From contig NZ_CP042997.1 in NCBI RefSeq assembly GCF_008087625.1, positions 5,704,001 to 5,768,000 of the forward strand: a DNA stretch of 64,000 bases. The letters are read 5' to 3'. This DNA is from Aquisphaera giovannonii (lineage in GTDB: Bacteria > Planctomycetota > Planctomycetia > Isosphaerales > Isosphaeraceae). Below, piece by piece: positions 10,147-58,513 of this stretch. The notes under the pieces were generated by a model. That model saw only the letters and a list, made by a program, of their open reading frames with translations, made no database searches and was not told where the DNA came from. How positions within the stretch are numbered: the stretch's first letter is position 1; each line of letters begins with the position of its first letter. Made by a program: the position numbers and the translations under genes.

Positions 10147-10572
10147 TCACCGCCTCGGGATGATCCAGCATGAGTCATGAAATTGCATGCCGATGTGGGG
10201 ATAATACTCGCGGGCCTTCGGCGCGGCGAGGAGGATGAGCGTGGTCTTGGGGCCCGCCGCCTCGTGCGTCAGCCGGATCAGCTCCCGGCCGATCCCCCTC
10301 CGCTGGTAGGCGACGTCCACGGCCAGGTCGGACAGGTACGTGCAGAACTGGAAGTCGGAGAGGGCCCGCGAGATCCCCACCAGCCGGCCGCCGTCGCGCG
10401 CGGTGATGATGACGTCGGCCTTCTCCAGCATCCCGAGGATCGCCCCCGGGTCGTCCACCGGACGCCGCTCGGCGAGAGTCGAGCGCACCAGGACGTCGAC
10501 GAAGTCCGCGGGGGTCAGGTCGGGGTAGCTCTCGCGCTGGTAGGTCAGGTCCATCTCGGTTGCGTCTCGCAT
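10147..10572 (-). CDS. GNAT-family N-acetyltransferase
   Basis: The product is 141 residues. The acetyl-CoA-binding signature is visible as [17 protein letters not shown] (Q/RxxGxG/A), followed by [17 protein letters not shown], the usual beta5-alpha4 end of GNAT enzymes. The substrate is unknown. The start at 10572 is taken because GGGGAG lies a little upstream. The in-frame ATG at 10554 is an alternative, and the longer open frame upstream runs into intergenic repeat sequence. The gene converges on the beta-propeller gene with only 12 bp between their ends. Confidence 0.8.
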
Positions 10573-10955
10573 GTGGATGAATGTCTCCCCGGGACGAACG
10601 GGGTAAGGCCGCGTGGCCTCGTGTCGCACGCCTCGGATGAGATCGCGAATCGGCCGGGGGCCGTCTCGCCGAGCCGACCGGGTTCCGGGTGGCCGGGGAG
10701 GAGCCGCAGGCGACGTCCCGAGACCGCCTGGGCGAGCGGAAAGGGCCGCGTCGCCCGCCGCGGCCCGCCCGACCGTGGCGTCGCTTCGCTCCGCCACAGC
10801 CACCCGGAGCCCCGGGAGCCGGTGCGAGACCTCGGGGATCGTTCGGCCCGCGCGTCATCGAGGATGAGGGCCCCCGGCCCCGGATCCATGGTCACGGCCG
10901 GGCGGCAGTCCATCAAGCCCTCGCCGGAGAATGTCCGCGGCCTCTCGGGGGTCTC
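10573..10955. other. Intergenic region with a dispersed repeat
   Basis: The region lies between the divergent GNAT and TA genes. Around 10775-10815 it has the dispersed element GTGGCGTCGCTTCGC...GCCACAGCCACCCGG, which also occurs near 3930-3970, 46767-46785 and 47079-47100. No gene is supported. Confidence 0.55.
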
Positions 10956-30421: not shown

Positions 30422-30939
30422 TCGGCCTCCTTCCTTCCCCAGGCCGCAGGCCTTGCCGGCGTGCCACCCCGGCAGGCCCCCCGAGGACGCCGCGCCTTCC
30501 CGTCGGAGGGGTCGCGCGGCTCGCTCCGGACGTGTCGGTCGCGTCGCCTCGGGGGCCTGGGGGGTGTGAGGCATGGCGACTCTAGCGATTAGGACGGTCG
30601 CGACGCCGGTTCATCCTGCGGAGATTGCCCCTTTTTACTGACCCCGTCAGGCGGCCCATTGTTGTCGTAAAGTGTTGCGACAAAAGGTGAAGCGCGTTCA
30701 AGGGCGGGCCCAGGGATGACGATACAAACAGTGCCTCGGCATGGTAGACCCACGACGAGGACTCGGGAGCACCAAACTGGTGGCAATGACTCGCGGGGGG
30801 GCGGAAACGCCCCGGGCCCCGGGAAGGCCTCAACCGCGGCGTCGATGCCATGGACGACCGAAGAGAAGCAGGGACGAGCGGAACGGCCGGCCGGCCACGC
30901 CGCCCTCGAACTTACGTTAGCCTAGGAGAGCATTCTCCC
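30422..30939. other. Intergenic region with possible operator
   Basis: No gene is seen in 518 bp. TTGTCG (30662-30667) and CGACAA (30678-30683) form an inverted repeat in an A/T-richer patch, and CACCA/TGGTG (30770-30774 / 30778-30782) a second, shorter one. These may regulate the Cys-rich secreted protein gene downstream. Confidence 0.45.
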
Positions 30940-31551
30940 ATGTTGAAGCCCTTGACCTTGAGCCTCAGCCTTGCCGTCGCCCTGGGGTTCACCAGCGTGA
31001 GCATGGCGGGCGGTCATGATGGTGGTTGTTCCACGTGCGGCCTGGCCTCGCCCCAGGGCGGCCCGATCGCCAGCGCCCAGGGCCCCGTCTCTTACGGCGA
31101 GTGCGCCGAGACCGGCCACAAGAAGTGCAACCTGTTCCACGGGATGAGCGGCAAGCTCAGCGGCCTGCACTGCAAGCTGAAGAGCGCCCTGCATCCTCCC
31201 GTCACCTACGAGTGGGTGCTGAAGAAGAAGCGGCTCTGGGGCCACAAGAGCTGCGGCGGCTGCGGCGAGTCCACCTGCGACAGCTGCGGCGGCGCCCCGG
31301 CGGTCTATCCGACCGGCCAGGTTGCCCCGTCCGGCCAGGGCTATGCGGCCCCGTCCGGCCAGGGCTATGCGGCCCCCCAGGCGGCCCCCGTCTACGGCGC
31401 CGGCCAGCACGCCTTCAAGGCCGTGAAGCCCGCCCCGACGATCGCCTCGGTGCCCGCCGAGATGACCCCCGCCGTCGCCGGCGAGGAGGCTCCTCCGGCC
31501 CCGGAAGTCAACGGGGGTGGCCTGCTCCTCCCGACGCCCGCCGGGAACTGA
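30940..31551 (+). CDS. Secreted Cys-rich planctomycete hypothetical protein
   Basis: The product is 203 residues with a signal peptide (LTLSLSLAVALGFTSVSMAG). The mature part has Cys pairs: CSTC, ECAETGHKKCNLFHG, HCKLK, then CGGCGESTCDSCGG. Next comes a VYPTGQ...PSGQGYAAP tandem repeat encoded by two exact 24-bp units (31327-31350 and 31351-31374), and a Pro/Ala/Glu-rich tail. Similar small proteins with C-x2-C pairs and PTGQ-type tails are common in planctomycetes but have no known function; disulfide-bonded envelope proteins are possible. AGGAG at 30924-30928 supports ATG 30940. Confidence 0.75.
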   Translation: MLKPLTLSLSLAVALGFTSVSMAGGHDGGCSTCGLASPQGGPIASAQGPVSYGECAETGHKKCNLFHGMSGKLSGLHCKLKSALHPPVTYEWVLKKKRLWGHKSCGGCGESTCDSCGGAPAVYPTGQVAPSGQGYAAPSGQGYAAPQAAPVYGAGQHAFKAVKPAPTIASVPAEMTPAVAGEEAPPAPEVNGGGLLLPTPAGN

Positions 31552-31627: not shown

Positions 31628-31667
31628 AACGGCCCTCGCGATGCCTTCGGGTGTCTCGAGGGCCGTT
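31628..31667 (+). terminator. Hairpin terminator candidate
   Basis: AACGGCCCTCG (31628-31638) and CGAGGGCCGTT (31657-31667) are perfect 11-bp inverted repeats, 77 bp after the stop of the Cys-rich protein gene. The 3' flank is only weakly T-rich. Confidence 0.6.
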
Positions 31668-31914: not shown

Positions 31915-33438
31915 ATGCGGAGCTTCACCTGGCTGCCTCTCGGCCCGGTCGCGGACGGATTCCGCCCCTGGCTGGATGCCTATCGCCGGCAGTCGCCGGG
32001 CCGCCGGCGGGCGATCCGCTGGGGCCTCGCGGGGGCGATCCTGGCGGTCGCGGCGGTCGCCGTCGTCGCCACCACGCCCTCCCTGGGCACCCCGGGGACC
32101 TGGTACCTGGGGATGGGCCGGCACTACGCCGCGGACGACCTCAGCAAGGTGGCCCGCGCCTTCGACCGCCAGCGGATCGCGTACCAGGTCGACGATCAGC
32201 GGCGGGTGGCCGTGCCCTGGTCCCAGCGCGAGGCGGCCGAGGCGGCCGCCGCCAAGCTCGAGCTCGGCCCCCGGCTCCCCGGCGAGATCCGGGACGAGGT
32301 CCAGGCCCCGGGCCTCCTCGACTCCCCCTCCGACCGGGAGGCCCGCGAGCATCGCCGGCAGGAGCAGATCCTGGAGTCCCTCCTCGCGAGGGTGCCCGGG
32401 GTGGCGGGGGCCTTCGTCCGGGTCAACCAGCCCCGGCCCCGGCTGGGCCTCCAGCCGGCGGAGCGGCCCTGGGCCTTCGTCAGCCTGGAGACCGAGGGGG
32501 ACCGCCCGCTGCCCTTCCAGTCGGTGCAGCTCATCACCACGGTCGTCAACGGCTTCGACCGGGGCATCGCGCCGGAGTCCATCACCGTGGTGGACCGCCG
32601 CGGCCACAAGTACCTGGACGCCGCCAACCCCTCGCTGGGCGTCCTCTCCCGGAACCTCGCGGAGGAGGAGCGGCTCACCCGCGAGATCGAGGGGGAGCTC
32701 GACTGGATCAGGGGCGTCCGCGTCTCCGTCCAACTCCCCGACGCGCCGGCCGACGAGCCGAGGCCGCCGGCCCCGACCGCGACGGCCGAGGCCGCGAAGG
32801 GCCCGGATGCCGCGGCCCCCGTCATCGCCATCAACCGGCCGCTGGAGATCGCCGAGCCCCCGCCCTCCCCCCCGATCGCGCCCGCCGCCCCCGCCTCGCC
32901 GCCCGCGACGGCCGGCCCTCGACCGGGGCGCGAGCACGGCCGCGTCTGGGTCAAGGTGCCGCGGAGCTATTACTATCAGGTGGGCATGATCCCCGGCCGC
33001 AAGGAGCCCTCCCCGGACGACTTCCAGAAGCTCGTCGCCAAGACGGAGGAGCTCGTCCGCCAGGGCATCGGGGGCGTCGTCCCGCTCGCCGGGCCCTCGG
33101 CCTGGCAGGCGACCGTGAGCGTGATCCCCGACGAGCTCCCCTCGCCGGCCCCGGCCATGCCCGCGTCCGAGACGCGCGGCGTCCCCGCCACCTGGGCCGT
33201 CGCGGCGGGCGTCGCGGGGCTCCTCGCGGCCCTCGCGGCGCTCGCCGCCTGGCTCGTCCGCCTGGGCCTGCGGCCGGCCTCGCGGCGCGAGGCCTCGCCC
33301 CGGGGCGTGCGCTATCACCGGGGCTCGGCCGCCAGCCCCGGGCCGTCCGAGCTCGTCCGCGAGTTCGTCCGGCGCAACCCCGAATCGGCCGTGAGCGTCC
33401 TGGAGCGGTGGACCAGCCAGGGAGGCGAGACCCCATGA
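31915..33438 (+). CDS. fliF: FliF-like MS-ring protein
   Basis: The product is 507 residues. Membrane segments lie at about 35-56 (AIRWGLAGAILAVAAVAVVAT) and 420-447 (TWAVAAGVAGLLAALAALAAW). Between them are ring-building motifs (ADDLSKVARAFDRQRIAYQV, the YscJ/FliF domain; TREIEGELDWIRGVRVSVQL; FDRGIAPESITVVDRRGHKY) and a Pro/Ala-rich stretch. The cytosolic tail ends ELVREFVRRNPESAVSVLER, the usual FliG-binding C-terminus. FliF forms the membrane ring around the export gate. ATG 31915 has GGAGGAGG at 31902-31909. Its stop overlaps the fliG start (ATGA). It is somewhat shorter than classic FliF (about 550). Confidence 0.88.
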   Translation: MRSFTWLPLGPVADGFRPWLDAYRRQSPGRRRAIRWGLAGAILAVAAVAVVATTPSLGTPGTWYLGMGRHYAADDLSKVARAFDRQRIAYQVDDQRRVAVPWSQREAAEAAAAKLELGPRLPGEIRDEVQAPGLLDSPSDREAREHRRQEQILESLLARVPGVAGAFVRVNQPRPRLGLQPAERPWAFVSLETEGDRPLPFQSVQLITTVVNGFDRGIAPESITVVDRRGHKYLDAANPSLGVLSRNLAEEERLTREIEGELDWIRGVRVSVQLPDAPADEPRPPAPTATAEAAKGPDAAAPVIAINRPLEIAEPPPSPPIAPAAPASPPATAGPRPGREHGRVWVKVPRSYYYQVGMIPGRKEPSPDDFQKLVAKTEELVRQGIGGVVPLAGPSAWQATVSVIPDELPSPAPAMPASETRGVPATWAVAAGVAGLLAALAALAAWLVRLGLRPASRREASPRGVRYHRGSAASPGPSELVREFVRRNPESAVSVLERWTSQGGETP

Positions 33439-34016
33439 CGACCCCGACCCCGCGGGCCGCCGCCGATCCGGCCGGCGACGCCTCCGCCCCGCCGCTCGCC
33501 GTCGAGGCGGGGGCCATCCCGCCGCTCCGCAAGGCGGCGATCGTCCTCGTCAGCCTCGAGCAGTCGCTCGCCTCCCAGCTCCTCCAGCACCTCGACCGCG
33601 CCGCGGTGGAGGCGGTCACCTGGGAGATCGCCCGGCTCGAGCGGATCGACCCGGCGGAGCAGGAGGCCGTGCTCGAGGAGTTCCTCGGCCAGGGCCTCCG
33701 TCGCCTCTGCTTCGTCTTCGAGGACCTCCTGCGGATGGACGACCGCGACGTCCGCGGCGCCTACCACGAGGAGGACATCGACGCCTGGGCGCTCGCCCTC
33801 GCCGGCGCGGCCCCGCCGGTCCGCGCCAAGGTCTTCGGCTCGCTCGACCCGGCCTCGGCCGCGTCGCTCCGCGCCCACCTCGAGGGCATGGGCCCGTTCC
33901 GCCTCTCCGACGCCGAGTCCGCCCAGGTCGACCTCGCCGAGCGGTTCCGACGTCTCCACGACCGCGGCGCCGTCCGCCTGCCGGAGCCGAGCGCCCGCGA
34001 CGAGGTCCTCGTCTAG
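33435..34016 (+). CDS. fliG: Reduced FliG: N- and C-domains joined without the middle domain
   Basis: The product is 193 residues against about 330 for ordinary FliG. Residues 30-85 (LRKAAIVLVSLEQSLASQLLQHL...EQEAVLEEFL) match FliG-N, which binds FliF. Then the sequence goes directly to FVFEDLLRMDDRDVRG and the FliG-C helices (LALALAGAAPPVRAKVFGSL...LRAHLEGMGPFRLSDAESAQ). The whole middle domain, which carries the EHPQR FliM-binding site, is absent. Of the charged residues needed for torque in E. coli FliG, only the Arg in GPFRLS is kept; the Lys is Ala, the DD pair is AH and the other Arg is Ser. It overlaps fliF by 4 bp. It probably caps the FliF ring but is unlikely to drive rotation. Confidence 0.85.
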   Translation: MTTPTPRAAADPAGDASAPPLAVEAGAIPPLRKAAIVLVSLEQSLASQLLQHLDRAAVEAVTWEIARLERIDPAEQEAVLEEFLGQGLRRLCFVFEDLLRMDDRDVRGAYHEEDIDAWALALAGAAPPVRAKVFGSLDPASAASLRAHLEGMGPFRLSDAESAQVDLAERFRRLHDRGAVRLPEPSARDEVLV

Positions 34017-34059: not shown

Positions 34060-34545
34060 ATGTTCGCGACACCTCGACGCACGATCGCCGCTGCGACCTT
34101 CTCGCTCGCCGCCCTCCTCGCGTCCGCGGCCGGCCCGACGTCCCGGGCCGAGGAAGCCGGCCCGGTCGTCGTGCCGCCCCCCTCGGGGCGCCTGCCGGTC
34201 CTCGGCCTTTCGGGCCCGTCGGCCCCGACGGATCCCGAGGCCGCGCGGCCGTCCGGCGGCGGCTGGTGGCTGGGGACCTCCGGGATCGCGCTGGCCCTCG
34301 CCGCCTGCGGCGCCGCCTCCGTCGCCGCCCGCCGATACCGCCCGCAGGGCTCCTCCGGGATGGTGAACGTCGTCGGCAAGGTGAGCCTCTCGCCCCGGCA
34401 TTCGATCGTCCTCGTCCGCGCCGGGGCCCGCGTCCTCCTCGTCGGCACGGGCCCGCAGGGCGCGCCCTCGCTCCTGGGCGAGCTCGAGGGCGAGGCCCTC
34501 CCCCTCGCCGCGGACGGCACGCCCCGGGCGGGAGGCGAGGCATGA
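34060..34545 (+). CDS. fliO: FliO-like export-gate assembly protein
   Basis: The product is 161 residues. A signal-like N-terminus (FATPRRTIAAATFSLAALLA) and a central membrane helix (about residues 67-90, WWLGTSGIALALAACGAASV) flank a Pro-rich segment. The cytosolic domain has NVVGKVSLSPRHSIVLVRAG, then VLLVGTGPQGAPSLLGELEG, the conserved FliO pattern. FliO is a chaperone for FliP ring assembly. AGGAGG at 34048-34053 supports ATG 34060. It overlaps fliP (ATGA), as in other fliOPQR operons. Confidence 0.8.
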   Translation: MFATPRRTIAAATFSLAALLASAAGPTSRAEEAGPVVVPPPSGRLPVLGLSGPSAPTDPEAARPSGGGWWLGTSGIALALAACGAASVAARRYRPQGSSGMVNVVGKVSLSPRHSIVLVRAGARVLLVGTGPQGAPSLLGELEGEALPLAADGTPRAGGEA

Positions 34546-35486
34546 CCGGACGCGGGCCGACCATCCGCCGCGCCGCCCTCCTCGTGACCCTGGCGGCGCT
34601 GGCATTCCTGGCTGCGGGCGCGAAACCGTGCCCGGCGCAGTTGCTGGCCGATTCCGACGAGCGCCCGTCGATCCCCGGCTTCGAGAGGCCGCGGTTCGAC
34701 GCCGAGGCGCTCAGGGCCGAGGCCGTGACTGTCCACGCGACGCCGCCGGGCCAGGCAGATGCCGCGGCCCCGGGCGAGGAGCCGGCCCCGGCGAAGCCCT
34801 CGCCGCTGCCCGACGCCCGGGACGCCATGCGGACCGCCTCCACGATGGCCCTCTACGGCCTCATGTGGCTGGCGCCGATGGGCGTGCTGATGCTCACGGC
34901 CTTCGTCCGCATCGAGATCGTCCTGGTCCTGCTCCGCCAGGCGATGGGCAGCCCGCAGGTCCCCAGCAACCAGGTGCTCATGGTTCTGGCGCTGCTGCTC
35001 ACGGCGCTCGTGATGCGGCCGGTCGGCGAGCGGGTCTACCAGGACGCGATCGTCCCCTTGCAGGCGGGCAAGGCCGCCCCGGCGGAGGCCTGGGAGGCGG
35101 GCTCAGCGCCCATCAAGGGCTTCATGGTAGACCAGATCGTCCGGACGAAGCACGCGGATTACCTGTGGGCCCTCTATCATCACGCCCGCCCGCCCGGCCC
35201 CGGCCGGGCCGAGCCGAAGTACGGCCACGAGTTCCCGTTCCGGATCGTCGCGCCGGCGTACCTGCTGAGCGAGCTGACCACCGCGCTGGTCATGGGCTTC
35301 TACCTGTACCTGCCGTTCCTGGTCATCGACCTGGCCGTCTCCGCGGTGCTCGCCGCGATGGGGCTCTACATGCTCCCGCCGACGCTCGTGGCCATGCCCG
35401 TGAAGATGATCGTCTTCGTCCTCGCCGACGGCTGGCTGCTCGTCTCGACGATGCTCCTGTCGAGCTTCGCCGGCCCGGGCGGATAG
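34542..35486 (+). CDS. fliP: FliP export-gate protein
   Basis: The product is 314 residues. After a signal peptide (residues 8-32) and a Pro/Ala/Glu-rich insert to about residue 95 come the family blocks: FVRIEIVLVLLRQAMGSPQV, PSNQVLMVLALLLTALVM, HADYLWALYHHARP, YLLSELTTALVMGFYLYLPF, VIDLAVSAVLAAMGLYMLPP and MPVKMIVFVLADGW. Five FliP subunits with FliQ and FliR make the substrate channel. All conserved parts are present, so the gate itself looks functional. The long periplasmic insert makes it larger than E. coli FliP (245). Confidence 0.93.
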   Translation: MTGRGPTIRRAALLVTLAALAFLAAGAKPCPAQLLADSDERPSIPGFERPRFDAEALRAEAVTVHATPPGQADAAAPGEEPAPAKPSPLPDARDAMRTASTMALYGLMWLAPMGVLMLTAFVRIEIVLVLLRQAMGSPQVPSNQVLMVLALLLTALVMRPVGERVYQDAIVPLQAGKAAPAEAWEAGSAPIKGFMVDQIVRTKHADYLWALYHHARPPGPGRAEPKYGHEFPFRIVAPAYLLSELTTALVMGFYLYLPFLVIDLAVSAVLAAMGLYMLPPTLVAMPVKMIVFVLADGWLLVSTMLLSSFAGPGG

Positions 35487-35501: not shown

Positions 35502-35768
35502 GTGGAACTCGATCATGTGATCGACTGGACGCGCGAGGCCCTGCGGATGAGCCTCCTGCTGGGCGGCCCCTTGCTCCTCGCCGCCCTGGCGGTCGGCCTG
35601 GTCGTGAACGTCCTCCAGACGCTCACGCAGCTGCACGAGCCGGTCGTCGGCCTGGTCCCGCGCCTGGCGGCCGTGCTGGTCGTCCTGCTGCTTATCCTGC
35701 CCTGGCTGCTCGGCCGCTGGCTGGGCTTCACGGCGGACCTCATCGGCCGCATCCCGGACCTGCTGTAG
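35502..35768 (+). CDS. fliQ: FliQ export-gate protein
   Basis: The product is 88 residues, the normal FliQ size, with two membrane helices (LRMSLLLGGPLLLAALAVGL and LAAVLVVLLLILPWLLGRWL) joined by the conserved LQTLTQLHEPVVGLVPRL loop. GTG start at 35502 with GAGGGGG upstream, 15 bp after fliP. It surrounds the FliP/FliR core. The next gene, fliR, is separated by a 178-bp inverted-repeat element, which is unusual inside this operon type. Confidence 0.92.
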   Translation: MELDHVIDWTREALRMSLLLGGPLLLAALAVGLVVNVLQTLTQLHEPVVGLVPRLAAVLVVLLLILPWLLGRWLGFTADLIGRIPDLL

Positions 35769-35987: not shown

Positions 35988-36752
35988 CTGGACGCCTTCC
36001 CGCCGGACGCAGCCTGGATTGCCCTGCACGGGCCCGCCTGGATCCTGATCCTGGCGAGGGTCGCCGGCCTCTGCGTCACGGCCCCGCTGACGGCGGTCCC
36101 CGGCGTGGACGTGCGGCTGAAGCTCCTCCTCGCGGCGATGCTCGGCGCGGTGCTGATCCCGGTCCTGGAGCCGACGATCGGCGTGCCGCCGGCCGGGCCG
36201 GCGCTCGCCTGGGCGGCGGTCATGGAGCTGGCGGTCGGGGCCCTGCTGGGCCTCTCCGCGGGGCTGATCGTGGCCGGGGCCCGGCAGGCCGGGGACCTCG
36301 TCGCGGCGCAGGCGGGGCTCTCCGCGGCGACGCTCTTCAACCCGGAGTCGGGCGAGGAGGTCACCGCCCTGGGGCACCTGTACGGCCTCGTTGCGCTGGG
36401 CGTCTTCCTGGCGATGCAGGGGCCGCTCGTCCTGGTCGCCGCGCTCGCGGAGAGCTACCGCGTCGTCCCCGCCGGGGGCTTCCTCCTGGACGCGTCGACC
36501 GCGTCTCAGGTCTTCGCCCAGGTGGGCGGGGCCCTCGCGCTGTCCCTCCGCGCCGCCGCCCCCGTGGCGCTCGCCCTGGCCCTCGCCGGGCTCGCCATGG
36601 GCTGGATCGGCCGCCTCGCCCCCGCGATCCCCGTCCTCGCGATGTCCCTCCCGCTGCGTTCCCTGCTGGGCATCGCCCTGGTCATCCTGGTCCTCGGGGT
36701 GCTCGTCGCCACATTCTCGCAGGCGTGGGCCGCATGGCCGTGGGGAGGATAG
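35988..36752 (+). CDS. fliR: FliR export-gate protein with a probable CTG start
   Basis: The product is 254 residues, the usual FliR length. The next ATG-, GTG- or TTG-type in-frame start is at 36105 and would delete the conserved N-terminus (WIALHGPAWILILARVAGLC, TAPLTAVPGVDVRLK). The frame is open upstream and has GAGGAGG at 35976-35982, placed 5 bp before CTG 35988, giving (M)DAFPPDAAW. Later blocks are AVMELAVGALLGLSAGLIVA, GDLVAAQAGLSAATLFNPES and LMLP-like SLPLRSLLGIALVIL. FliR completes the FliPQR channel. No ATG/GTG/TTG fits, so the rare start codon is inferred and may reduce expression. Confidence 0.82.
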   Translation: MDAFPPDAAWIALHGPAWILILARVAGLCVTAPLTAVPGVDVRLKLLLAAMLGAVLIPVLEPTIGVPPAGPALAWAAVMELAVGALLGLSAGLIVAGARQAGDLVAAQAGLSAATLFNPESGEEVTALGHLYGLVALGVFLAMQGPLVLVAALAESYRVVPAGGFLLDASTASQVFAQVGGALALSLRAAAPVALALALAGLAMGWIGRLAPAIPVLAMSLPLRSLLGIALVILVLGVLVATFSQAWAAWPWGG

Positions 36753-37049: not shown

Positions 37050-38105
37050 ATGTCCGACGAGGATCGCACCCAGCCCGCATCGAAGCGTCGCCTCCAGCTC
37101 GCCCGCGAGCAGGGCCAGGTCGCGCACAGCCCGGAGCTGACGGCCGCGGTCGGGTGGCTCGTCGCCCTGGTCCTGCTGGGCTCCTGGGGCGGGGACCTGA
37201 TCCGCGGCCTGGCGATGCTGACGCGGGCCCCGCTGGAGGCCGTGCCGGTCGCGATCGACGCCGGCCGATTCGTGGCCGACCTCCGCGCCGCGGCCCTGGC
37301 GATCGCGGCGCCCCTCGCGGTCCTCGTGCTGGGCTTCGCGGCGGGCGCCGTCGCGGCCCACCAGGCGCAGGTGCGGGGCCTCTGGGCCCCCTCGCTCCTC
37401 GCCCCGGACGCCTCGCGGCTCTGGTCGGTCGGCCGCGGCGGCGGGCTCGGGGCGGGGCTCGAGCGGATCGCCTGGGCGGCGATCAAGGCGGTCCTCCTCG
37501 TGGTCGTCTCGGCCTGGGCGATCCGGGCGGAGTGGGCCGAGCTGCAACGCCTCGGCCTGCTGGCGCCGGCGGAGCTGGCGTCGGCATCCGGCCGCGTCGT
37601 GGTCTGGCCGCTCGGGGTGCTCGGCGCGGTCATGGTCGCGGTCGGCCTGGCGGACCTGGGCCTCCGCCTCGCCCGGTTCGAGGCGATGCTCCGGACCACG
37701 CCCGACGAGCACCGCGAGGACCAGAAGGCGATGGAGGGCGACCTCTCGCTTCGGGCCAGGCGCCGGCGGCTCGCCCGGGCCTGGCGCGGCGACGCCCCGG
37801 AGCTGCTGGCCGGCGCCACGCTCGTCGTCACCGGCGCCGGCGGCCTGACCGTCGTCATCGGCGGCGGCCCGCCCCCGCGTCGCGTGAACGTCCGCTCCGC
37901 CGCCAAGGGCCCGACCGGCTTCCAGCTCCGCCATTCCAATCGCACCGTCTGGATCCCCGAGATCGAGGCCCCCGCCCTCGCCCTCCGCCTCGGCCCCTAC
38001 GCCGCCAACGCCCCCGGCGCACCCGAGACCCTCCCCGCTGACCTCCTCGCCGCCCTCGCCGCCGCCTGGCCGGCCCCGGCTCCCGGCCCTCGCCGGCCGG
38101 CCTGA
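37050..38105 (+). CDS. flhB: FlhB-like export switch protein lacking the NPTH cleavage site
   Basis: The product is 351 residues. The start KRRLQLAREQGQVAHSPELT is the FlhB signature (SKRRLxxAREQGQVAxSxEL). Four membrane segments follow to about residue 215. The cytosolic linker EHREDQKAMEGDLSLRARRR matches the EhKEE.K..EGDP..K.R.R block. Where every export-competent FlhB has VTNPTHxA, this protein reads LVVTGAGGLTVVIGG. Without Asn-Pro the self-cleavage that switches substrate class cannot occur. The C-terminal tail is poorly conserved and Pro/Ala-rich. Start at ATG 37050 (GTG 37047 also possible) with AGGGG upstream. Confidence 0.85.
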   Translation: MSDEDRTQPASKRRLQLAREQGQVAHSPELTAAVGWLVALVLLGSWGGDLIRGLAMLTRAPLEAVPVAIDAGRFVADLRAAALAIAAPLAVLVLGFAAGAVAAHQAQVRGLWAPSLLAPDASRLWSVGRGGGLGAGLERIAWAAIKAVLLVVVSAWAIRAEWAELQRLGLLAPAELASASGRVVVWPLGVLGAVMVAVGLADLGLRLARFEAMLRTTPDEHREDQKAMEGDLSLRARRRRLARAWRGDAPELLAGATLVVTGAGGLTVVIGGGPPPRRVNVRSAAKGPTGFQLRHSNRTVWIPEIEAPALALRLGPYAANAPGAPETLPADLLAALAAAWPAPAPGPRRPA

Positions 38106-52540: not shown

Positions 52541-54886
52541 ATGCCAGGGACGACATCGAGCCCGCTCGCTTCCGGGTGGCGGCACGCCTCCGGGTTCGTG
52601 ATGCCGATCGTGATCGTCGGCGCCGTCCTCGTGTTCGTGGTGCCGATCCCGCCGGCTCTGCTGGACGTCCTGCTCTCGGCCAACCTGACGCTCGCCGTCG
52701 TGGTCCTGCTGACCACGCTGGCGATCCGGACGCCGCAGGAGTTCAGCGCCTTCCCGACCATCCTGCTGACGACCACGCTGACCCGGCTGGTGCTCAACGT
52801 GGCGACCACCCGGCTCGTCCTGACCGGCGGCGGCACCGAGCTCGGCGTGAACGCGGCCGGCGGCGTGATCCGGTCGTTCGGCGAGTTCGTCGCCGGCGAC
52901 CAGGTGCTCGTCGGCGTGATCCTGTTCTCGATCCTGGTCGTCATCCAGTTCGTCGTGATCACCCGGGGGGCCACGCGGATCAGCGAGGTCGCCGCGCGGT
53001 TCATGCTCGACGGTCTCCCCGGCCGGCAGATGGCCATCGACGCCGACCTGCACGCCGGGCTGATCGACCAGCACCAGGCCCACGAGCGCCGGGACGAGGT
53101 CTACCGCCAGGCGGACTTCTTCGGGGCGATGGACGGGGCGGGCAAGTTCGTCCGCGGCGACGCCATCGCGGGCGTCGCCATCCTGATGGTGAACATCTGC
53201 GGCGGGCTCTTCCTGGGCGTCTTCCAGTACGGGATGAGCGTCTCGGACGCGGTGAACGTCTTCACGAAGCTGACGATCGGCGACGGCCTGGTGAGCCAGG
53301 TGCCGGCGTTCCTGATCTCGCTGGCGGCCGGCCTGATCGTGACGCGGTCGTCGTCCTCGACGGACCTGGGCCGCGACGTGACCGGGCAGCTCTTCGGGGA
53401 CCGCGGCGTGCTGGGCACGGCGGCCGTCTTCCTGGGCCTGCTGGCCTTCACGCCGCTGCCCAAGGCCCCGCTGCTGACGCTCGCCGGGGGCCTCGGCGCC
53501 GGGGCGATCCTGATGGGCCGCCGCGGCGCGTCGGGCGAGGGCGAGGCGGCGGCCGCCGACCACCCGGCCGGGCGTCGCGAGGGCCCCGGCCAGGCCCACG
53601 GCCCGGACCGCCGGGTGGACGCCGGCCACGCCCCGATCGCCGCCCCGAGGCACGCGGCCGAGCCGCCGGCCGCGCCGGCTTCGGGCCCGGGCTCCGAGGG
53701 GATGGAGGACCTGCTGCACGTCGACCCGCTGGAGCTGGAGATCGGCTACCGGCTGATCGGACTGGCCGACCCGACGCGGGGCGGCGACCTTTTGGAGCGG
53801 CTGCGGACGGTCCGCCAGCGGATGGCCCGCGAGCTCGGCCTGATCATCCCGCAGGTCCGGATCCACGACGAGATCGGGCTGACGCCGCACGAGTACCGGG
53901 TGAAGATCCGCGGGGCGATCGCGGGGCAGGGGACGGCGCACGCCGGCCGGCTGCTGGCGGTGCCCCCGGCGGGGCTGGCCGGCCGGCCCGACGGCCGCGA
54001 CGGCATCGACCCGATCACAGGCCAGGCCGCGGTCTGGATCCACGCCGACGGGCGTGAGGTCGCGGAGCTCTCCGGCTGCCGGGTCATGGAGGCCTCGTCG
54101 GTCGTCGCCGGGCACTTCGGCGAGATCATCCGCAACCACGCCGACGAGTTGCTGACCCGCGAGCAGGTGGACCGCCTGCTCGACCGCGTCCGCGCCACGG
54201 CGCCGTCGCTGGTGGCCGAGGTCGTGCCCAGCCTGCTCCGCCCCGGCGAGCTCCAGCGGGTGCTCCAGAACCTGCTCCGCGAGCGCGTGAGCATCCGCGA
54301 CCTGGAGACGATCCTGGAGACCCTGGCCGTGCACGCCGGCCGGACCCGCGACGTGGAGGTGCTCACCGAGCACGCCCGCCAGGGGCTGGCCCGCCAGATC
54401 ACCGAGAGCCACCGCGGCGCCGACGGGCGGCTCCGCGTGGTCACGCTGTCGAAGCCCCTGGACGCCCGGCTCTGCGCGGCCGGCGGCGAGGCCGACACCC
54501 GGCCCTCCGAGGCCCTCGGCGACGAGATGACGCGGAGCGTCGTCCGCGCCGTGGCCGTGGCCGTGGCCACGCTGGTGGACGCCGGGCTGCCGCCGCTGAT
54601 CCTCACCTCCGCCGCGGCCCGCCCCGTGCTCAAGGACCTGACCCGCGCCGACCTGCCGCGGCTCGTCGTCCTGAGCCAGCGGGAGATCCCGCGGGACACG
54701 CCCCTGGAGGTCCTGGGCAGCGTGATCGAGGAGGACGACGCCGACGACGCCGAGGCCGGGGTCGAGCCGGGGCCGGGGCCCCTGGATGCGGACTGGGAGG
54801 GCGCGCCGGAGGCCGGCCGCCGGACGCCGCCGCGGCGGGAGCCGGACATCGTGACCTCGATCACCACCACCGAGGCCCTCGGCTGA
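52541..54886 (+). CDS. flhA: FlhA export-gate protein
   Basis: The product is 781 residues, longer than E. coli FlhA (692). Eight membrane helices occupy residues 20-330, including LLDVLLSANLTLAVVVLLTT and the FHIPEP-type signature FGAMDGAGKFVRGDAIAG. Residues 330-385 are a Pro/Ala/Gly-rich linker. The cytosolic part (LLHVDPLELEIGYRLIGLAD, RRQMARELGLIIPQVRIHDE, ...LLREQVDRLLDRV, LLRERVSIRDLETILETLAV) is complete. FlhA forms the nonameric docking ring for substrates. GGAGG precedes ATG 52541. The position 14.4 kb from flhB and downstream of secreted proteins is unusual but the gene looks intact. Confidence 0.93.
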   Translation: MPGTTSSPLASGWRHASGFVMPIVIVGAVLVFVVPIPPALLDVLLSANLTLAVVVLLTTLAIRTPQEFSAFPTILLTTTLTRLVLNVATTRLVLTGGGTELGVNAAGGVIRSFGEFVAGDQVLVGVILFSILVVIQFVVITRGATRISEVAARFMLDGLPGRQMAIDADLHAGLIDQHQAHERRDEVYRQADFFGAMDGAGKFVRGDAIAGVAILMVNICGGLFLGVFQYGMSVSDAVNVFTKLTIGDGLVSQVPAFLISLAAGLIVTRSSSSTDLGRDVTGQLFGDRGVLGTAAVFLGLLAFTPLPKAPLLTLAGGLGAGAILMGRRGASGEGEAAAADHPAGRREGPGQAHGPDRRVDAGHAPIAAPRHAAEPPAAPASGPGSEGMEDLLHVDPLELEIGYRLIGLADPTRGGDLLERLRTVRQRMARELGLIIPQVRIHDEIGLTPHEYRVKIRGAIAGQGTAHAGRLLAVPPAGLAGRPDGRDGIDPITGQAAVWIHADGREVAELSGCRVMEASSVVAGHFGEIIRNHADELLTREQVDRLLDRVRATAPSLVAEVVPSLLRPGELQRVLQNLLRERVSIRDLETILETLAVHAGRTRDVEVLTEHARQGLARQITESHRGADGRLRVVTLSKPLDARLCAAGGEADTRPSEALGDEMTRSVVRAVAVAVATLVDAGLPPLILTSAAARPVLKDLTRADLPRLVVLSQREIPRDTPLEVLGSVIEEDDADDAEAGVEPGPGPLDADWEGAPEAGRRTPPRREPDIVTSITTTEALG

Positions 54887-54947: not shown

Positions 54948-56102
54948 ATGACGATGGCCGCGAAAACCTACAGGGCCGGGACGATGCGGGAGGCGCTGGC
55001 GAGGGTCCGCAAGGACCTCGGCGGCGACGCGATCATCCTCGCCTCTCGCTCGGTCCGGCGCCGGCGGCTGTTCGGCCTGGGCGGCCGCGAGCTGATCGAG
55101 GTCCGCGCGTCGGCCACCATGCCGCAGGCGGCCGCGCTCGTGGAGGCGGCCGGGGCGCCGCCCCCGCCGGCCTCCGGGGCCGCGGCGGGGCCGGGGGGCC
55201 TCTCCGCCGACGCGCAGGGGCGGCTCGGCGACGAGCTGAGCCGGCTGCACGAGCGCGTGGACGCCCTGAGCCGGATGGGGCGGGTGGACCACCTCGTGCC
55301 CGACCTGCCGGCGCCGGTCGTCGCCTCGTATGCGAGGCTGGTCGAGGCCGAGGTCCCCGAGCCCCTGGCGCGCCGGATCGCGGCGGCCGTCGCGGACTCG
55401 CTGGAGCCGCACCAGCTCCACGACCCGGCGGAGGTCGACGAGGCGCTCCTCGAGGCCGTGGCGCGGTCCATCCCGGTCGCCCCGCCGATCCGCGCCGTCA
55501 TGGGCACGAGGCGGGTGGTGGCGCTCGTCGGGCCGACGGGCGTGGGGAAGACGACGACGGTGGCGAAGCTCGCGGCCAACTTCAAGCTGGTGCACGGCCT
55601 GTCCGTCGGGCTCGTCACGCTGGACACCTACCGGATCGCGGCCGTGGAGCAGCTCCGGACCTACGCCGAGATCATCGACCTGCCGCTGGCCGTGGCGAAC
55701 GACCCCGGGGAGATGGCCCGGGCGCTCGACGAGCTGGGCGCGGTGGACATCGCCTTCATCGACACGGCCGGGCGCAGCCCGCGGGACGAGGTGAAGATCC
55801 GCGAACTGGGCGAGTTCATGGACCGGGCCCGGCCCGACGAGGTCCACCTGGTCCTCAGCGCCGGGGCCGGCGAGAAGACGCTCCGCGCCGCGGCCGAGCG
55901 GTTCGCCCGGGTGCGGGCGGATCGCCTGATCCTCACCAAGCTCGACGAGGCGGAGGGCCTGGGCGATGCGCTCGGCCTGCTCGGCCAGTCGAGCCTGCCG
56001 GTGAGCTACCTGACCACCGGCCAGGCGGTCCCCGACGACATCGAGCCGGCCGACCGCCGGCGGCTCGCGGGCCTGATCCTCGGGATGGAGGCCATCGGAT
56101 GA
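54948..56102 (+). CDS. flhF: FlhF SRP-type GTPase
   Basis: The product is 384 residues. An N-terminal B domain (residues 1-120, TYRAGTMREALARVRKDLGG and DAIILASRSVRRRRLFG) is followed by the NG domain. GTPase motifs are G1 GPTGVGKTTT (about residues 195-204), DTYRIAAVEQLRTYAEIIDL, DTAGRSPRDEVKIREL and TKLDEAEGLG. FlhF places the flagellar base and export gate at the membrane and needs the N-terminal helix of FlhG to trigger GTP hydrolysis. ATG 54948 lies 61 bp after the flhA stop. A 59-residue peptide with the FlhG activator motif follows at 56208. Confidence 0.92.
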   Translation: MTMAAKTYRAGTMREALARVRKDLGGDAIILASRSVRRRRLFGLGGRELIEVRASATMPQAAALVEAAGAPPPPASGAAAGPGGLSADAQGRLGDELSRLHERVDALSRMGRVDHLVPDLPAPVVASYARLVEAEVPEPLARRIAAAVADSLEPHQLHDPAEVDEALLEAVARSIPVAPPIRAVMGTRRVVALVGPTGVGKTTTVAKLAANFKLVHGLSVGLVTLDTYRIAAVEQLRTYAEIIDLPLAVANDPGEMARALDELGAVDIAFIDTAGRSPRDEVKIRELGEFMDRARPDEVHLVLSAGAGEKTLRAAAERFARVRADRLILTKLDEAEGLGDALGLLGQSSLPVSYLTTGQAVPDDIEPADRRRLAGLILGMEAIG

Positions 56103-56732: not shown

Positions 56733-57509
56733 ATGTCAACCAAGGTGGATGTGGATGTGACCGAACTCTGGCGCGAGTTCAAGGAGCACCCCACCACGGA
56801 GATGCGGAACCAGCTCGTCGAGCGGTACCTGCCGCTCGTCAAGTACAACGCCGAGCGCATCTGGCAGCGGCTGCCGGAGGGGGTGGACCTCGATGACCTG
56901 ATCTCCGCCGGCGTCTTCGGGCTGATGGACGCCATCGACGCGTTCGACCTGACCCGCGGCGTCAAGTTCGAGACCTACTGCGTGCCCCGGATCCGGGGCG
57001 CCATGCTCGACGAGCTCCGCACGATGGACTGGGTCCCCCGGCTGGTCCGCTCCAAGGCCAGCAAGATGGAGGAGGCCCGCAAGGAGCTCGAGGCCAGGCA
57101 CGGCCGGCCCCCCACGCCCGCCGAGCTCGCCGAGAAGATGGGCCTGCCCATGGCCGAGTTCGAGAAGCTGGCCATGGACGCCTCCGCCGTCGGCCTCATC
57201 AGCCTCAACAAGAAGTGGTACGAGACCGACGGCTACAAGGACGTCCGCGAGATCGACATCCTCGAGGACAAGAAGGGGGAGGACCCCACCCGACGCCTCC
57301 AGCGCAAGGACCTGATGCGCATGGTGACGAAGGGGCTGAACCGCAACGAACGCCTGATCATCATCCTCTATTATTACGAAGAGCTGACCATGAAGGAGAT
57401 CGGGGCGACGCTCGACCTGAGCGAGTCGCGGGTCTCCCAGATGCACTCGTCGATCATCCAGCGGCTCCAGTCCCAGCTCTCCTCCCGCCGCCCCGAATTC
57501 GGCACCTGA
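56733..57509 (+). CDS. fliA: FliA/WhiG-type sigma factor (sigma-28 family)
   Basis: The product is 258 residues with sigma-70 regions in order: region 2 about 20-95 (NQLVERYLPLVKYNAERIWQ, DLDDLISAGVFGLMDAIDAF, RGVKFETYCVPRIRGAMLDE), region 3 about 100-165 and region 4 about 200-255 (NERLIIILYYYEELTMKEIG, LDLSESRVSQMHSSII). The RGAMLDELR and SRVSQ motifs are those of FliA-type factors that read sigma-28 promoters. No FlgM gene is visible. GGAGG at 56723-56727 supports ATG 56733. It ends the flhA-flhF group, as in many flagellar operons. Confidence 0.93.
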   Translation: MSTKVDVDVTELWREFKEHPTTEMRNQLVERYLPLVKYNAERIWQRLPEGVDLDDLISAGVFGLMDAIDAFDLTRGVKFETYCVPRIRGAMLDELRTMDWVPRLVRSKASKMEEARKELEARHGRPPTPAELAEKMGLPMAEFEKLAMDASAVGLISLNKKWYETDGYKDVREIDILEDKKGEDPTRRLQRKDLMRMVTKGLNRNERLIIILYYYEELTMKEIGATLDLSESRVSQMHSSIIQRLQSQLSSRRPEFGT

Positions 57510-57766: not shown

Positions 57767-58513
57767 ATGACCTGGACTGACCGGCGTGCATCCCGTTGGC
57801 TCGTGCCGCTCGCGGCCTGCGCCGTCATGGGCCTGGCCCCGGGGCGTGCCCACGCCCAGTTCGGCTACGGCGGCTTCGGCTGGATGGGCGGCTTCAACTA
57901 CGTCGAGCAGCCGACGAACGTGATCAACCAGGCCGCGCTCTCCCGCGCCGGCCGGCCGGTCGGGCCGGAGATCCGGAGCGTCTACGCGAACATGCCGAAC
58001 TCGTACATCAACAACATCCGCGACAACGGCTTCGTCCCGACCTACAATGTGGCCCGCCGCCGGCCCGTCTCGGAGCGGGCGCCCGCCCGGACCTCGCCCG
58101 GCGACCTGGCCATGGTCACGCCCGGGACGCCCGCGCCGGTCGCCGCGCCGGCCGCGCCCGCCCGGCCGCAGATCCCCCTGTCCAGCTTCTTCGACTCCAT
58201 GCAGCGGCTCGCCTGGCCGGCGGAGTCGCCCGTCGACGGCGACCTGAAGGAGAAGCGGGAGGTCTCCGACCACGCCAGCCTCGAGGTCTACCTGCAATCC
58301 ACGGCGCACGGGGCGGCCACGCTCACCTCGGTCGCGGAGGCCCGCCAGAAGCTGCTCGACTACGGCCGCCCGGCCCTCAAGGAAGTGCGCGAGAAGTTCA
58401 CGCCCCGCGTCGCGGACACGTTCCACATGTTCATGCTCTCCCTCTACGACTCCCTCGCCCAGGTGGCCACCGTCGCGGATCCGGGCCCCGACGGCCCCCC
58501 GCCGGTCCCCTGA
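57767..58513 (+). CDS. Secreted planctomycete hypothetical protein
   Basis: The product is 248 residues. A signal peptide (WLVPLAACAVMGLAPGRAHA) is followed by FGYGGFGWMGGFNYVEQPTN, a Gly/aromatic-rich start, then PEIRSVYANMPNSYINNIRD and a Pro/Ala-rich hinge. A C-terminal helical part (SLEVYLQSTAHGAATLTSVAEARQKLLDYGRPALKEVREK) ends the protein. I do not recognise the family beyond its planctomycete character. It is downstream of fliA on the same strand (257 bp gap) and might be in the same regulon. Confidence 0.7.
   Translation: MTWTDRRASRWLVPLAACAVMGLAPGRAHAQFGYGGFGWMGGFNYVEQPTNVINQAALSRAGRPVGPEIRSVYANMPNSYINNIRDNGFVPTYNVARRRPVSERAPARTSPGDLAMVTPGTPAPVAAPAAPARPQIPLSSFFDSMQRLAWPAESPVDGDLKEKREVSDHASLEVYLQSTAHGAATLTSVAEARQKLLDYGRPALKEVREKFTPRVADTFHMFMLSLYDSLAQVATVADPGPDGPPPVP

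Follow-up and report, generated by a model that had tools for sequence, protein, structure and literature searches.

A shortened FliG conserved across Isosphaeraceae and its possible place in a stationary flagellum-derived export machine

Directly behind fliF in the window (the whole 64,000-nucleotide stretch of Aquisphaera giovannonii DNA analyzed here) lies a fliG gene for a protein of only 193 residues, raising the question of what such a FliG might do in the Isosphaeraceae, a family with no motile swarmers and few flagellar genes, described as a "poor representation" (PMC5352709), of which Isosphaera pallida has no flagella, glides, and carries pili (PMC3072084). That flagellar genes are scarce in these bacteria has thus been published (PMC5352709), but the open-access literature searched gave no description of a FliG shortened in this way or of its conservation, nor of the additional FliG-C gene, the loss of the ATPase or the changes in FlhB described below.

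Architecture of the short FliG

The gene (coordinates in Table 1) translates without a stop into 193 residues, and its ATG overlaps the stop of fliF by 4 bases. Pfam places FliG_N (PF14842) on residues 30-85 (profile positions 4-59 of 104, 2e-14, 54.3 bits), a match that covers the first half of the profile only, and FliG_C (PF01706) on residues 84-182 (profile positions 10-108 of 108, 9e-22), where the score of 77.9 bits is above the cut-off of 23.3. A weak FliG_M match (5e-6) falls on N-terminal residues 34-77; as these are the same residues as the N domain, it points to a resemblance between armadillo folds and not to a middle domain. In the alignment, E. coli FliG residues 64-228 are missing, that is, the second half of FliG-N, the linker, the entire middle domain including the EHPQ motif, and ARM-C to just before the MFXF hinge. 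The EHPQ motif of the FliG_M domain is the site of FliM binding. At the positions of the torque residues K264, R281, D288, D289 and R297 (E. coli numbering), the short protein reads A, A, A, H and R, such that R297 alone (its R156) is kept, and its score against the rotor-FliG family TIGR00207 (77.9 bits) lies below the cut-off of 226.7.

An AF2 model obtained with the family alignment as input (pLDDT 85.6) superimposes through residues 26-87 on the FliG-N of the FliF-FliG co-crystal 5tdy (Z 10.4, 1.6 Å, 62 residues, 44% identity), and through residues 94-181 on the MotAB-bound FliG torque domain 8ucs (Z 14.0, 1.6 Å). Assignment of the N domain as FliG-M was ruled out by comparison of both scores (54 vs 27 bits, and Z 10.4 for FliG-N vs 7.4 for FliG-M, 4qrm). 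Pfam, alignment and model therefore agree with the first-pass annotation, which had described FliG-N joined directly to FliG-C, with the middle domain gone and only the last torque arginine left. The protein retains the FliG-N fold of the FliF-FliG co-crystal, the FliG-C torque-domain fold and the place directly after fliF that are seen in flagellated bacteria, but the FliG of these organisms has about 330 residues with a middle domain and a whole FliG-N, whereas here four of the five torque residues are gone from a protein of 193. As judged from its sequence, this is a FliG cut down to its predicted FliF-gripping half and a torque-type domain without the torque charges.

The same annotation had proposed that FliF binding may be retained, noting that the FliF tail is present, and this tail is indeed kept. 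The fliF reading frame opens at 31651, with the ATG at 31915 as its likely start, and the C-terminal end of the product is a FliG-binding-type tail, SELVREFVRRNPESAVSVLERWTSQGG, whose pattern ERVREL(V/I)R.(N/D)PEAAA.VL.RW is kept in 30 of 31 Isosphaeraceae loci. We note also that this is the sole FliG of the organism: the window's 10.5-Mb genome (G000; 99.94% complete) contains no second FliG_C match, and a FliG_M search returned only the same N domain, ruling out a full-length fliG hidden elsewhere.

Conservation of the deletion across Isosphaeraceae

We aligned E. coli FliG with 23 full-length planctomycete FliGs and 27 short FliGs from Isosphaeraceae. The deletion of E. coli residues 64-228 is present in all 27, and none of these close relatives has a normal middle domain; the middle domain and torque residues are kept in the 23 full-length FliGs, which come from other Planctomycetia. 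In the full-length set, K264 and R281 are invariant and positions 288/289 are acidic (E), with one exception (N). In the short set, position 264 holds A, G or V, position 281 varies, and an acidic residue is almost never found at 288/289 (a single E, at 288). R297 is present throughout, and further invariant residues are spread over both domains. More broadly, FliG_C was found in 38 of the 45 Isosphaeraceae genomes (25 of the 26 of good quality), and the short form is seen in all 30 FliG loci retrieved as well as in L052, L054, L055, L057, L059 and L060. FliG_C matches from the rest of the Planctomycetia lie mostly in frames of more than 300 aa with a separate FliG_M, and more distant relatives give separate N and C matches, the pattern typical of full-length FliG. 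As a side observation, seven genomes of other Planctomycetia (G133, G190, G220, G061, G144, G172 and G208) have FliG_M, and some of them FliG_C, within frames of 740-930 aa, which may encode larger proteins that have taken up FliG domains by fusion.

In some members of the family, a second FliG_C match lies directly downstream of the short fliG, as seen in 12 Isosphaeraceae genomes (about a quarter of them), the window's genome not being among these. In the loci read, this extra FliG-C is a free-standing gene of about 102 residues that overlaps the end of the short fliG by a few bases.

Nei-Gojobori comparison with two relatives gave dN/dS values of 0.16-0.45 for all genes compared, values that are approximate given the 72% GC of the genome. 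Low dN/dS, open frames and synteny together speak against decay, and indicate that the operon holding the short fliG is under purifying selection. They also bear on the possibility that this one genome has suffered a local deletion, carries a pseudogene or was misassembled. Nothing but the short length itself speaks for this, and the same architecture recurs in 27 relatives whose genomes were assembled independently in many cases, the complete chromosome of Singulisphaera acidiphila among them, such that conservation and dN/dS leave this explanation a negligible probability and rule out a local deletion or pseudogene.

The export gate and the missing motor

The order fliF-fliG-[second fliG-C]-fliO-P-Q-R-flhB is syntenic throughout the Isosphaeraceae; flhA, flhF and fliA often follow flhB directly in relatives, and in the window they lie 18 kb on (Table 1). 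FlhF is an SRP-type GTPase that places flagella. The set of membrane gate proteins, FliP, FliQ, FliR, FlhA and FlhB, is thus fully encoded. FlhA is of the flagellar rather than the injectisome type (TIGR01398 741 bits vs SctV 488 bits), can be aligned from end to end with solved flagellar FlhA, and still has the MAIDADL and RGDAIAG segments, which we take to be the sites of D208 and D249; at 91% identity to A. insulae, it is also the best-conserved component. Other gate proteins have been altered: the methionine gasket of FliP (MMM) reads L-Y-M in the window and mostly L-F-M or similar in the family, so that gating may differ, and alignment to solved FlhB shows the autocleavage motif NPTH replaced by GAGG (VVTGAGGLTVV), with NPTH missing from all 22 Isosphaeraceae FlhBs read. 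In L055, L057, L089 and L092, FlhB appears to end at about 262-274 aa, in which case most of the cytoplasmic switch domain would be gone, beyond the cleavage motif alone. Separately, the two hypothetical products listed at the edges of the cluster, with Sec-like signals, gave no family match in profile searches, and are possible partners of an export machine.

Table 1. Features of the window and related loci (positions without a prefix are those of the window).
Feature	Position	Strand	Evidence
Conserved Cys-rich secreted-type hypothetical, just upstream of fliF	30850..31551	+	Synteny, most family loci
fliF, MS-ring protein, about 507 aa	31915..33438	+	Pfam YscJ_FliF 1.4e-13
fliG-short, 193 aa	33435..34016	+	FliG-N fused to FliG-C; Pfam, alignment, AF2 model
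FliG-N part, residues 30-87, predicted FliF-binding	33522..33695	+	Pfam FliG_N; 5tdy_B match
FliG-C part, residues 88-182, opens at MFVF-like CFVF hinge	33696..33980	+	Pfam, alignment, model
fliO-like	34060..34545	+	Pfam FliO 3e-8
fliP, ATG 34542 within ORF from 34266	34542..35486	+	Pfam FliP 1e-58; alignment to solved FliP
fliQ	35502..35768	+	Pfam Bac_export_3 1.5e-21
fliR, start uncertain (listed ORF opens at GTG 36105)	35988..36752	+	Pfam Bac_export_1 4e-39
flhB	37050..38105	+	Pfam Bac_export_2 1.8e-35; alignment to solved FlhB
flhA, flagellar type	52541..54886	+	TIGR01398
flhF	54948..56102	+	TIGR03499 205 bits, above cut-off
fliA/whiG-type sigma-28 factor	56733..57509	+	TIGR02479 265 bits, above cut-off
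Conserved hypothetical, Sec-like signal	57767..58513	+	Adjoins fliA in several relatives (L058, L071, L074)
Extra free-standing FliG-C gene	L075 (Singulisphaera acidiphila) 10488-10793		
SctQ-like SpoA gene and upstream partner	G000:C1 about 8,713,043-8,715,233; L050:7044-9234 (-)		

In family-profile searches, which strongly diverged versions could escape, neither FliI nor the MotB plug reached the cut-off in any of the 45 Isosphaeraceae genomes, the rod/hook domain Flg_bb_rod was not found in the window's genome and gave stray matches in 3 of the 45, all drafts, and a canonical FliM domain was above cut-off in a single genome, where it is a fragment of the SpoA protein discussed below. The best FliI matches were rejected, as they look like F-type ATPases. 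The sole convincing rod-domain match (G005:C92 and C541) comes from a draft without FlhA or FliG_C, and is perhaps contamination.

With the torque residues gone and MotB missing from all 45 genomes, the earlier proposal of a base that cannot rotate is strongly supported. That this base supports export is likely, to judge from the conserved genes for FlhA, FliP, FliQ, FliR and FliO. The further description of a base without FliM stands only for canonical FliM, since an SctQ/FliM-FliN-like SpoA protein is encoded in 34 of the 45 genomes; the ring is reduced and rearranged, not simply missing. It might be objected that so many absent parts, and the truncated C-terminal domain of FlhB in some genera, indicate a decaying relic of a lost flagellum kept by inertia. 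We consider this highly improbable, as reading frames stay open, gene order is kept and dN/dS is low family-wide, and as the same truncated FliG architecture, with invariant residues in both of its domains, is fixed in all members.

Taking these observations together, the reading we consider probable is that the retained flagellum base is a stationary, proton-driven export machine, with the short FliG as cap or adaptor of the FliF ring. FliF, the short FliG and the FliPQR-FlhB-FlhA gate would form a stationary inner-membrane ring, on which the short FliG would act as a structural cap or adaptor and not as a rotor. The proton-driven FlhA engine may then export one fixed substrate class, because FlhB is uncleaved, without an ATPase and without a substrate switch, and, with no rod and hook, substrates would pass to the periplasm or into some conduit. 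In Salmonella, ATPase activity is dispensable for type III export (PMC4230889), and there is a precedent in non-flagellated Lysobacter, which has kept a working flagellar export apparatus while FliG is gone (PMC9927559).

The main alternative is that the retained proteins serve as a scaffold connected with FlhF, budding or pili. FlhF, FliF and the short FliG would then mark a membrane site (a pole, bud or pilus base), the gate being kept for assembly and export being absent or incidental. The retention of flhF in the cluster would fit such a role, as would the loss of FliI, the rod and the FlhB switch, the fact that Isosphaeraceae are non-flagellated and bud or grow in chains (PMC5352709, PMC3072084), and the effect of the retained Lysobacter apparatus on type IV pilus twitching (PMC9927559). 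However, a pure scaffold would have no use for the cytoplasmic domain of FlhA that docks substrates, yet FlhA, with this domain, is conserved better than any other component. We regard the scaffold role as unlikely. Still less probable, in our view, is a role of the retained core in making membrane tubes or other membrane extensions, which has been suggested for the flagellar CORE of other bacteria (the nanotube proposal, as cited in PMC9380563): while the retained set does amount to the CORE (FliO, FliP, FliQ, FliR, FlhB, FlhA) plus FliF, FliG and FlhF, the proposal needs none of the latter three, and yet all are strictly kept.

Comparison with known systems sets the putative stationary export machine apart. 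Lysobacter enzymogenes is also non-flagellated, has lost motor genes and uses FlhA, FlhB, FliP, FliQ and FliR in a new role, but it keeps FliI and has lost FliG, (PMC9927559), whereas in Isosphaeraceae it is FliI that is gone and FliG that persists in remodelled form. The ancestral-type non-flagellar T3SS of Myxococcales is similarly flagellum-derived and without motility parts, with protein transport proposed in place of a contact-dependent injectisome role (PMC3459982); by comparison, the FlhA and FlhF of Isosphaeraceae are clearly of flagellar type, and there is no FliI. Injectisome-type systems are without FliG, which Isosphaeraceae keep. Finally, the CORE and the hat-like structures that have been connected with the flagellar T3SS share FliO, FliP, FliQ, FliR, FlhB and FlhA apart from a flagellum, but occur in species with complete flagellar genes (PMC9380563), whereas Isosphaeraceae have the reduced set alone.

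The short FliG would represent a natural separation of FliG tasks, in which selection, once the need for torque and switching is gone, keeps FliF gripping and a torque-domain fold stripped of the torque charges. It points to a machine, shared by the family and derived from the flagellum, that has neither FliI nor FlhB autocleavage, which may offer a natural test both of purely proton-driven export and of the change from a motor to a secretion device.

The SctQ-like SpoA protein and its neighbour

The SpoA-domain protein mentioned above is of the SctQ/FliM-FliN type and is encoded once per genome where present, away from the fliG locus. The protein from the window's genome has 419 aa with a C-terminal SpoA domain, and its best family is SctQ (TIGR02551), although its 84.9 bits are below the curated cut-off of 100.8. 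It therefore resembles SctQ and FliM-FliN ring proteins in this domain and in its best match (85 bits), but differs from them in scoring below the SctQ cut-off, in lying far from the gate genes, and in standing beside a family-only FliG-like protein.

This neighbour is the product of a gene of about 310 aa, without family assignment, which the SpoA gene follows in most genomes having both. It was found in 27 genomes of the Isosphaeraceae but not in any of 216 genomes from other Planctomycetia, and G003, G004, G011 and G034 lack both it and the SpoA gene. Among 23 members, a single one matches Pfam FliG_C, with a score right at the cut-off. For an AF2 model (pLDDT 70), FliG chains take all of the first 13 places in the structural comparison, at Z scores of 4.7-6.5 that are weak and within the chance range for helical proteins. 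Profile-profile comparison with FliG alignments gave no significant score, and local alignments with FliG are consistent but individually insignificant. The weak fold match, the borderline Pfam score and these local alignments make a highly diverged FliG a lead as to what this protein may be. Where present, the SctQ-like protein and its FliG-like neighbour might form a separate cytoplasmic platform for substrate sorting.

One may go further and suppose that FliG has been split by function, with the FliF-gripping N domain and a torque-dead C domain in the short protein (joined by the extra FliG-C where that gene is present), and with the diverged FliG-like gene, relocated beside the gene for an SctQ-like ring protein, supplying its adaptor, in a stationary machine without ATPase, rod or specificity switch. 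We offer this fuller version tentatively, as less likely than not. Isosphaera pallida (G011) has the short FliG and FlhA while both the SpoA gene and its neighbour are missing, which indicates that the export core does not require them. In the window's genome, the SpoA gene and its partner lie in a two-component regulator neighbourhood.
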